This document shows positions 1,733 through 6,580 of a stretch of DNA of 27,357 nt, one piece after another. A model generated the notes under the pieces. The model made no database searches. It was not told where the DNA came from and saw only the letters and a program-made list of their open reading frames with translations. The stretch spans positions 1 to 27,357 of the IMG/VR virus record IMGVR_UViG_3300038566_000279. One strand, written 5' to 3'. Within the stretch, counting starts at the first letter, position 1. Each line of letters begins with the position of its first letter. Source of the stretch: a virus. Position numbers and translations under genes: made by a program.

Positions 1733-2131
1733 TCATTCACTTTTATAAAGACACTCAACAAGATCAACACAAACAGTTTCTGACCATTTAGAAGTAAGTC
1801 CATTAGTATCTGTTACATTTATTTTAAAGCATTGGTTGCCTGTTTTTAGGTCAGTCATAGCAAAGGCCAGGCTTTCTATAACGCTTTCATCGCCAAGACT
1901 TATTTTTTTATTTATATAAGCCTCTTCATCCATGCTTTCCATTACTTCTACAGTGTAATGAGCTATTTCGTGCATGTATAACTCTGTACCATCTTCTCTT
2001 TTGGTTGGCGTGTCCCATGATAGTAAAACGTCCCTACATTCTTTTGCAGTTATGTTGTTATTAATAGTTGTGGTTATTTCATCACAAGCCACTAGGCCAA
2101 TTAAGGCCATAGCTATAATTAGTTTTTTCAT
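1733..2131 (-). CDS. Lipoprotein with fibronectin-III-like fold, paralogue 1
   Basis: A 132-residue lipoprotein. The start is the ATG at 2131 because GGAGGGG lies directly upstream and a canonical signal follows (MKKLIIAMALIGLVAC, lipobox LVAC, Cys16). The open frame extends further upstream but without a signal. The mature domain carries LLSWDTPTKREDGTE and a C-terminal INVTDTNGLTSKWSE, which resemble the first and last strands of FN3 domains, and three more cysteines. It is a clear paralogue of the 2580-2975 gene, sharing AKECxDVLLxW, ETP/DTP, SFAMTxLKTG and CFKINVTD. A surface or periplasmic role such as receptor masking or superinfection exclusion is inference only. It is the last gene of the leftward block. 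Confidence 0.78.
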   Translation of the reverse strand: MKKLIIAMALIGLVACDEITTTINNNITAKECRDVLLSWDTPTKREDGTELYMHEIAHYTVEVMESMDEEAYINKKISLGDESVIESLAFAMTDLKTGNQCFKINVTDTNGLTSKWSETVCVDLVECLYKSE

Positions 2132-2150: not shown

Positions 2151-2552
2151 TTAAATTTCGTTTTTTCCCTCAACATTTCTTTTGATTCTGTCCATAGTTC
2201 TTTTTTCTTGCCACATTAAAGCCTCTTCAAGCTTAGTTATGCTTATTGCATTTTCTCTGCACGGAAATTTAGCATTTAAATATTTAAGCATTCTTAAACC
2301 GATTCTAATAAACACTGTCCATTGGCAACCTTTACCACCTTCACTTGCTGGTTTAGTCATCATGGTGCAAGACACTGAATCAACATCATGCCTGATATAG
2401 ATCTTATGATGTGGCCTAATGTCTGTCTCAAACCATTTATAATCCATTGCTCCTGACTCATTGAACATGTCTGGATATTGCTCACGCAAGTCATCCATAA
2501 CGATAACTCTATTGCCTTCTACTTCTGTCATACCTTTTAATGAATTTAGCAT
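2151..2552 (-). CDS. Acb2/Tad1-hairpin-domain-like protein (candidate anti-CBASS/anti-Thoeris sponge)
   Basis: A 133-residue protein. Residues 77-133 match the pattern I know for the phage Acb2/Tad1 hairpin family: a GCQ turn (75-77), a first helix, then FPCREN (96-101), ITKLEEALMWQEKRT (105-119) and a closing RNVEGKN. Family members sequester cyclic nucleotides or gcADPR signals made by CBASS and Thoeris defence systems. The N-terminal 75 residues (DYKWFETDIRPH, IYIRHDVDSVSCTM) look like a short alpha/beta region preceding the hairpin. AAAGGAAAT supports the start at 2552. It lies between two paralogous lipoprotein genes with 20- and 27-bp gaps. The assignment rests on remembered consensus, and ligand binding has not been shown. 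Confidence 0.66.
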   Translation of the reverse strand: MLNSLKGMTEVEGNRVIVMDDLREQYPDMFNESGAMDYKWFETDIRPHHKIYIRHDVDSVSCTMMTKPASEGGKGCQWTVFIRIGLRMLKYLNAKFPCRENAISITKLEEALMWQEKRTMDRIKRNVEGKNEI

Positions 2553-2579
2553 TTTATTTCCTTTCTACTAATTATTAAA

Positions 2580-2975
2580 TCACTTATCTTCATAAATACA
2601 TTTTTCAAGGTCTATACATGCTTCTTCAGACCAAGGTGAGGTCTGCTGATCGATATCAGTCACATTGATTTTAAAACAATTCTTACCTGTTTTAAGATAG
2701 GTCATTGCAAACGAAAGCATTTCTACCACGTTGTCAGCTTCGTCACGCATAACATCTTGAGTGAGGTATGATTCGGTTTCATCATTAAGTCTTGCTTGTA
2801 TTCTAAAATGGTCTACTTCAAATAAGTGGAAGTTTGTGCCGTCCATTCTAGACATAGGTGTTTCCCATTTTAAAAGCACGTCTTTGCATTCTTTTGCAAT
2901 TGGTAATTCTGTATTGTAGTAGTTTTTTTCACACGCTGCAGTTAGTACAGCTAGTATTAGTATTAGTTTTTTCAT
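2580..2975 (-). CDS. Lipoprotein with fibronectin-III-like fold, paralogue 2
   Basis: A 131-residue lipoprotein with signal MKKLILILAVLTAAC (Cys15; TAAC at the cleavage site is acceptable but less canonical than its paralogue's LVAC). AAAGGAT precedes the ATG. The mature part shares AKECKDVLLKWETP, RMDGT, MLSFAMTYLKTG, CFKINVTD and a WSEEAC ending with the 1733-2131 product, and keeps the same cysteine positions. The motifs fit a single FN3-like beta sandwich held by a disulfide. The two copies have diverged in the middle third, which suggests an old duplication under different selection. Attachment to the outer membrane is expected; the function is unknown. Confidence 0.78.
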   Translation of the reverse strand: MKKLILILAVLTAACEKNYYNTELPIAKECKDVLLKWETPMSRMDGTNFHLFEVDHFRIQARLNDETESYLTQDVMRDEADNVVEMLSFAMTYLKTGKNCFKINVTDIDQQTSPWSEEACIDLEKCIYEDK

Positions 2976-4368: not shown

Positions 4369-4782
4369 TTATCTCCTAATATTTTTACAGTTTTCTGACA
4401 TAGTTACCCAACGCATATTCTCTATTTTGTAACCAAGTTCTGAATTTATTCTATCAACCGATGGCGCAAGTGTTCTCTTGTACCCCGAAGATTCCCATAC
4501 TCTAAATAGTGAATGAAACTTTTTAGACTGTTTTGCCCACTCATAAAACACTTCCTTTTCAAGAAGTTCCTTTCCTGCATACAAATGAAACTTCGCTGCC
4601 TGCACTCCTGTTACTCTAGATTTCATATTTCTATACAGTCTCATCAAAAAACCATTTTTTGTTTTTTCATATTTCTTTGTGTGTAAATTATCATTTTTTG
4701 CTCTAGCTATTTTTTGATATTTATTTGTCCGATTACGAAATTCTCTATATTCTTTATGTGATTCAAATGATCTCACTCCCAT
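4369..4782 (-). CDS. HNH-type homing endonuclease-like protein
   Basis: A 137-residue basic protein. The C-terminal part, LAPSVDRINSELGYKIENMR followed by WVTMSENCKN, is the typical tail of small phage HNH endonucleases (S-x-DRI-N...GY...N-RWVT...N). The N-terminal 60 residues are very Arg/Lys-rich (RNRTNKYQKIARAKNDNLHT), as in DNA-contacting regions. The first histidine of the HNH motif is not obvious, so activity is uncertain. AGGAGAG supports the ATG at 4782. Directly upstream lies the structured segment 4811-4966. The gene is probably a free-standing mobile element within the accessory block. Confidence 0.7.
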   Translation of the reverse strand: MGVRSFESHKEYREFRNRTNKYQKIARAKNDNLHTKKYEKTKNGFLMRLYRNMKSRVTGVQAAKFHLYAGKELLEKEVFYEWAKQSKKFHSLFRVWESSGYKRTLAPSVDRINSELGYKIENMRWVTMSENCKNIRR

Positions 4783-5678: not shown

Positions 5679-6028
5679 CTATTAACCTCCCATTTCTTCA
5701 GCACATATTTATTAAACCAGTCTTGAAAATCATCGTCATAGATATTTGACTGCACAAGATAAGCTTCAAATTCAAAAGATATTGAATGATAAGCATCACT
5801 CCAATTTCGATACTCAATAAAGCCCAGAATAAATTCATAAACATATGATAGATAAAACTTAACTCTGCCTAGTCTTTCCATTTGTTTTAAGTGTTCGTAC
5901 TCATGCCTCAATAGACGCATATCTGCATCAAGGCCCACTATATAAATATTCGGATAGATAGTAATGGCTTCAATGCGCATCCAATTTGGGAATAGCCTTG
6001 GGAGCCAGTGGTTATATTTTATTTTCAC
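5675..6028 (-). CDS. HExxH zinc-metallopeptidase-like protein
   Basis: A 117-residue protein with a gluzincin-type zinc motif. HEYEH at about residues 42-46 lies in RHEYEHLKQMERLG, and a later Glu in SFEFEAYL (about 84-91) is a candidate third ligand. This H-E-x-x-H...E layout is common in small phage and bacterial proteins of uncertain peptidase activity. Aromatic residues between the motifs (FYLSYVYEFILGFIEY) suggest a hydrophobic core or membrane contact. The start overlaps the HNH gene stop in an ATGA arrangement. Cleavage of host or virion proteins is possible; the substrate is unknown. Confidence 0.6.
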   Translation of the reverse strand: MKIKYNHWLPRLFPNWMRIEAITIYPNIYIVGLDADMRLLRHEYEHLKQMERLGRVKFYLSYVYEFILGFIEYRNWSDAYHSISFEFEAYLVQSNIYDDDFQDWFNKYVLKKWEVNR

Positions 6029-6507
6029 GCCAACCCCTCGTCGTTTTCTTGAGCTACTTTTGCCATTAAAAAAGCTTTATAGATTTGCTCCAATAAATAC
6101 CTAGTAGCAATTGCATCCTCTTTATCTTGAAAGCTTCCAATATGAACATTAAAGCCGTTTACAACTAGAGACGATAACCATTTATTTTGATTCTTATGAT
6201 AATAAACGCCCTTAAAACCTGATGTATTATTCCTAAATACTCTAGTATTTAATATTTGAAGCTGCTGCGGTGCCCACCTACAATTATCTTTATAATATCC
6301 CTTTGTATTGTCAATTCTGTCGAGGCTCATGCCCTCATGTCTTCTGCCCATATCTTTAAGAAAATCTTTAAAACTATTTTTCCACGCAAAACACACTCTT
6401 ATCTCAGAATAGTAACCAGTTGTTTTTTTATCTCTATCAAGCATTGTTCTCCATGAGTTGTACTCTCTAGACCTAAAACTTCTCAACGAATGTCCGTGCC
6501 TATACAT
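6025..6507 (-). CDS. HNH endonuclease with AP2 DNA-binding domain
   Basis: A 160-residue homing-type endonuclease. I place the start at the ATG at 6507 (MYRHGHSLRSF) because GAGGG lies nine bases upstream and the ATG overlaps the preceding 26-codon frame by 8 bases (ATGTATAG). A TTG at 6540 or ATG at 6528 are alternatives without a good Shine-Dalgarno. The N-terminal half has HG-S...EYNSWRTMLDR and MSLDRIDNTKGYYKDNCRWA, the degenerate HNH pattern. The C-terminal half (SGFKGVYYHKNQNKW, then HIGSFQDKEDAI) is an AP2 domain, which binds DNA through a three-stranded sheet. It probably moves by homing between phage genomes. Confidence 0.85.
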   Translation of the reverse strand: MYRHGHSLRSFRSREYNSWRTMLDRDKKTTGYYSEIRVCFAWKNSFKDFLKDMGRRHEGMSLDRIDNTKGYYKDNCRWAPQQLQILNTRVFRNNTSGFKGVYYHKNQNKWLSSLVVNGFNVHIGSFQDKEDAIATRYLLEQIYKAFLMAKVAQENDEGLA

Positions 6508-6580
6508 ATTCTTTGCCCTCAATCTCATATGCCCAACCAATGTCTTTGCAATCTTCTGGTTTTATGTAATATGTTTTCAT
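6500..6580 (-). CDS. 26-codon frame, possibly a gene interrupted by the HNH insertion
   Basis: A short frame starting MKTYYIKPEDCKDIGWAYEI and stopping at a TAG that overlaps the HNH start. The residues look like the beginning of a normal small soluble phage protein and not random sequence: balanced charge, Tyr/Trp-rich, no rare residues. It may be the 5' stub of a gene cut when the HNH gene arrived, or a functional mini-protein. The ATG lies one base after the stop of the membrane micro-protein upstream (TAAGATG), with GGGAAAT as a weak Shine-Dalgarno. Confidence 0.4.
   Translation of the reverse strand: MKTYYIKPEDCKDIGWAYEIEGKEYV

Follow-up and report, generated by a model that had tools for sequence, protein, structure and literature searches.

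The window analysed here, the whole 27,357-nt stretch of IMG/VR record IMGVR_UViG_3300038566_000279, carries a small gene whose product ends in a helical hairpin of the type found in phage cyclic-nucleotide sponges. The question raised by this locus is to which sponge family the product belongs, and what the long region in front of the hairpin represents. The first-pass annotation gave no strand for the open reading frame at 2151-2552; over this range the plus strand contains eight stop codons, and the frame is open on the minus strand only (Table 1). Both motifs that it had quoted were located in the translation, the FPCREN...ITKLEEALMWQEKRT...VEGKN pattern at residues 96-131 and IYIRHDVDSV at residues 51-60.

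Table 1. Coordinates of the sponge gene, its parts and its two flanking genes in the window
Feature	Position	Strand	Basis or remark
Tad1-like sponge protein (putative), ORF of 133 aa	2154..2552	-	Stop codon 2151-2153; ATG at 2552
Ribosome-binding site AAAGGA, 6 nt before ATG	2559..2564	-	Sequence
Residues 1-18, N-terminal helix and strand beta1	2499..2552	-	Common to relatives without the insert
Residues 19-47, helical insert of this lineage (MDDLREQYPDMFNESGAMDYKWFETDIRP), in the loop joining beta1 and beta2	2412..2498	-	AF2 helices; shorter or absent in near relatives; no Tad1 homology
Residues 48-77, beta2-beta3 hairpin and loop, counterpart of Tad1 HxF..V...FQxGPxxExGxNG	2322..2411	-	hhalign
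Residues 78-124, Acb2/Tad1 helical hairpin, CREN...ITKLEEALMW..KRT	2181..2321	-	PF24729, PDB Tad1, AF2 helices
Residues 125-133, C-terminal tail with the R-x-VEG motif that Tad1 conserves	2154..2180	-	Alignments
Small lipoprotein-like gene, upstream neighbour, paralogue of the downstream one	2580..2975	-	45% identity
Small lipoprotein-like gene, downstream neighbour	1733..2131	-	Start 2131; a start at 2176, as listed for a longer frame, would run into the sponge gene

Tad1 was the top match by sequence, by profile and by fold, in agreement with the earlier placement in the Acb2/Tad1 hairpin family. The HMM comparison that had been proposed as a check of that placement gave a match of residues 87-114 to PF24729 (E=2.7e-5) that, at 24.7 bits, stops just short of the curated cut-off (27). 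The experimentally defined Tad1, that of SBSphiJ7, itself scored only 34.2 on this model, and 18 of 21 family members matched it at E<=1, some of them (e.g. L013) above the cut-off. The relatives, 40-68% identical, are encoded at 48 homologous IMG/VR loci and were collected using the seeds MDYKWFE and P[ED]KFNES; a family scan of genome contigs and plasmids found none in host genomes or on plasmids. Single-sequence phmmer against the PDB returned Tad1 chains at 6e-10 to 1.5e-7 (CmTad1 6e-10, CbTad1 1.3e-7), while the family profile reached the PDB Tad1 chains at 2e-17. In PHROGs the window protein matched phrog_2428 at 2.2e-15, a group that SBSphiJ7 Tad1 covers end to end (8e-47), and the two proteins are 49% identical over residues 68-132 (tblastn, 8e-10). 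Profile-profile comparison (hhalign) of the full alignment with that of eight Tad1 or Tad1-like phage proteins gave a match over residues 47-133 (E=1.2e-26, prob 99.7). The VEG of the tail lies at residues 127-129, its E and G being invariant among the family members that reach that far. A single-chain AF2 model (pLDDT 90.5) was compared with the PDB using Foldseek; the 13 best matches were all Tad1, and the best CmTad1 chains superposed at 1.9-2.0 A over 77 columns. Differences in the N-terminal third keep the TM value down to about 0.5. A chance resemblance to the hairpin family was ruled out by the Pfam, PHROG and PDB sequence and profile matches.

The approximately 75 residues in front of the hairpin had been read as an extension that short Acb2 proteins lack. 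That premise was wrong because the comparison had been made with Acb2 only: most of the region is the ordinary front half of Tad1, to which residues 47-77 align, and the part of the claim that stands is a short insert that is indeed unusual. In the review PMC12043709, and among the aligned phage proteins, Tad1 proteins are 120-142 aa long with an N-terminal beta domain of similar size. The AF2 model likewise predicts an N-terminal antiparallel beta domain before the hairpin, with strands at residues 14-18, 51-54 and 59-62; the first two are separated by helices at 19-25 and 38-48, and a long helical hairpin follows at 78-95/99-124. The Tad1 beta domain is described in that review with four strands, where the model of the window protein has three. 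When the N-terminal halves were aligned alone (residues 1-74), the hhalign match began at residue 47 and covered 29 columns (E=4.5e-6). Residues 1-46 found no partner by hhalign among the eight Tad1 and Tad1-like phage proteins, and gave no known domain and nothing beyond chance in Pfam, PHROGs, PADLOC or the phage collection. Judged from these alignments and the predicted fold, the window protein has the Tad1 architecture of beta domain, helical hairpin and VEG tail. An anti-CBASS sponge of the Acb2 type with an acquired N-terminal domain would also account for the Pfam hairpin model, which is common to Acb2, but the PDB matches include Tad1 chains and no Acb2 chain, and the beta hairpin, the position of the FQxGP-type loop and the VEG tail all align to Tad1. 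This origin is very improbable: residues 47-77 and the tail align to Tad1, and on that ground an Acb2 with an added domain was rejected.

The unusual part is a segment of about 25-30 residues (FNESGAMDYKWFE..IRP) between beta1 and beta2, for which no homologue was detectable in Tad1 or elsewhere; by the sequences compared, it is specific to the lineage of the window protein. A second search for relatives, seeded in the hairpin core only, retrieved proteins with the same core and differing N-termini. In two of them, L119 and L123, the N-terminal MALxTLK..I.G..V strand and the beta hairpin are present and the helices between them are missing. The model of L119 (pLDDT 93.4) has the same three strands, at 15-19, 30-33 and 38-41, and fits CmTad1 slightly better than the window protein does (TMq 0.62). 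Over the last 60 residues the insert-free L119 is 83% identical to the insert-bearing L014. By core, the nearest proteins to that of the window are L068 and L072, with L002; L068 and L072 carry a shorter segment, L068 having GEVDWESFDSMRDEFP in place of GAMDYKWFETDIRPHHK. On a rough core tree of 78 columns the long-insert label requires 12 changes, at least five of them forced by well-supported branches, these counts lying at the upper end since labels assigned by pattern misfile a few rows (e.g. L052 and L129). In close relatives with up to 83% identity over the C-terminal 60 residues the insert is shorter or absent, and the segment has thus undergone repeated change over a conserved core, by swapping through recombination or by repeated insertion and loss, two routes that the data do not tell apart. 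Neither the insert nor its variability was found described in the portions of the literature searched.

On the contig of L014 (G004) there are two Tad1-like paralogues separated by about 4 kb, L145 and L148 (1492-1827, minus strand); one has the insert and the other lacks it.

Conservation within the insert bears on whether the hairpin is the functional part at all. Residues 19-47 form the lowest-entropy stretch of the family, with a mean of 0.57 bits against 1.48 for the second helix, a figure that was given reduced weight, being inflated by family-search seeds that lie inside the insert. Furthermore, in L053, L054 and L055 the FNESGAMDYKWFE-type N-terminal half is kept, the CREN and VEG motifs are gone and the Pfam hairpin model no longer matches. 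Both observations fit a protein that works through its N-terminal segment in some role other than sequestering a signal, with the hairpin only a scaffold for oligomerisation. The core-seeded search, biased in the opposite direction (toward kept cores), instead gave cores that are kept and N-termini that vary, and we regard such a role as improbable. It is also unlikely that the beta1-beta2 loop of this Tad1 branch is a variable selectivity cassette, in which one hairpin core is retained while the helices are replaced or resized to track the immune nucleotide of the host. If so, the clade would hold sponges for signals outside the known gcADPR/CDN/CTN set.

In the pocket, Tad1 residues N92 and R109 align with N101 and R118 of the window protein, each kept in 39 of 41 family members. 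At the position of Tad1 F82, the aromatic residue that stacks on gcADPR, the window protein has L92, and Leu stands there in 35 of the 41 members; the aromatic residue, a feature of the gcADPR-binding subset of Tad1, is absent. A one-residue deletion before CREN converts the FQ region to L-N. In the window subclade (14 rows on the core tree), MxTKPxSEGG mostly stands in place of the Tad1 FQxGPxxExGxNG, and in the window protein itself the FQxGP motif is lost and the loop reads MMTKP. The Leu at the F82 position and the changed loop suggest an altered pocket. To our knowledge, none of the Tad1 homologues that have been tested comes from the clade of the window protein. These changes, and an insert that differs among relatives with near-identical cores, would be expected had the Tad1-type fold been kept and retargeted, the insert and loop fitting another nucleotide (e.g. 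only cyclic trinucleotides, or an undescribed isomer). The Leu at the F82 position lowers only the gcADPR claim. Against retargeting, the L-N form is common to many Tad1-like proteins, and binding of CTN and gcADPR is reported as conserved among tested Tad1 homologues (PMC12043709). Retargeting is a tentative possibility, and a sub-case of a Tad1 sponge rather than exclusive with it.

The homology, predicted fold, conserved core and VEG tail together indicate that the window gene probably encodes a Tad1-family nucleotide-signal sponge. Weighing against this are the Pfam score below the cut-off, the TM value near 0.5, the Leu at the F82 position and the loss of the FQxGP motif in the window subclade. 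Its location as such a sponge is most likely cytoplasmic, and its ligand could be gcADPR, cyclic trinucleotides or another nucleotide. Assembly state, binding and ligand are inferences here. On the pattern of the solved Tad1 structures, protomers would pair through their helical hairpins and assemble further, probably as a hexamer (in Tad1 a trimer of dimers). Cyclic signalling nucleotides would be held in pockets to which one protomer contributes its hairpin and another its loops and VEG tail, following the Tad1 pocket anatomy given in the review PMC12043709. The concentration of free signal would fall without the signal being destroyed, and it is proposed that Thoeris and/or CBASS effectors are consequently not switched on during infection. 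The insert is predicted to lie beside the beta hairpin, where its likeliest effect is on ligand choice or subunit packing.

The sponge gene sits in a run of minus-strand genes of a short-tailed phage contig, whose portal protein shares 40% identity with the portal of Pelagibacter phage Greip and resembles the portals of other HTVC010P-like phages. Its position between two secreted lipoprotein genes, as previously described, was borne out in that both flanking genes are small and lipoprotein-like; they match no family, and superinfection exclusion as their role is no more than a guess. Next to related sponge genes, homologues of the flanking lipoproteins and of most nearby genes are absent, and thus there is no conserved operon. 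Two HNH-type homing endonuclease-like frames (4369-4782 and 6025-6540, both minus strand) were recognised by eye among the early genes of the window.

A Tad1-type sponge at this locus would widen the range of the family to include short-tailed relatives of the Pelagibacter HTVC010P group, and would define a branch with a fixed core and a changing segment beside the beta hairpin. Should ligand choice depend on the insert, the insert-free and insert-bearing relatives with 83% identity over the C-terminal 60 residues would form a natural test set for sponge retargeting.

Among known proteins, the viral protein A0A516MPI8 (BFVD, 135 aa) matches the window protein over its whole length with 69% identity and TM 0.96; no name or functional description was found for it in the tables searched, and its prior deposition means that this variant was not previously unseen. 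A Tad1-like C-terminal core also stands behind other N-terminal sequence in phiKZ-group gp184 (8y6v) and in a fusion of Burkholderia phage FLC9, but these N-terminal parts have no resemblance to the insert. The FLC9 fusion (L060, 718-1731, plus strand) joins a cyclophilin-type prolyl isomerase (PF00160, 2.5e-44) to the core in one 338-aa frame. Short Tad1-like proteins with a reduced N-terminus, annotated as hypothetical, occur in Brochothrix and Shewanella phages (L026, 1953-2192, 79 aa; L027, 1881-2198, 105 aa). Acb2 is a protein of about 94 aa with a short N-terminal helix and no beta domain. It shares the Pfam hairpin model with the window protein, which differs in its 133 aa, in predicted beta strands that align to Tad1 and in having no Acb2 among its PDB matches. 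Tad1 (SBSphiJ7 Tad1; CbTad1 7uav, 7uaw, 8smd, 8kbe and 8kbf; CmTad1 8kbb, 8kbc and 8kbd) has the same size and order of parts, shares the core CREN...ITKLEEALMW..KRT..R..R.VEG and is the best match by sequence and fold; in contrast to it, the window protein adds a helical insert of about 28 residues between beta1 and beta2, lacks one residue before CREN and, with its subclade, shows TKP where Tad1 has the QxGP loop.
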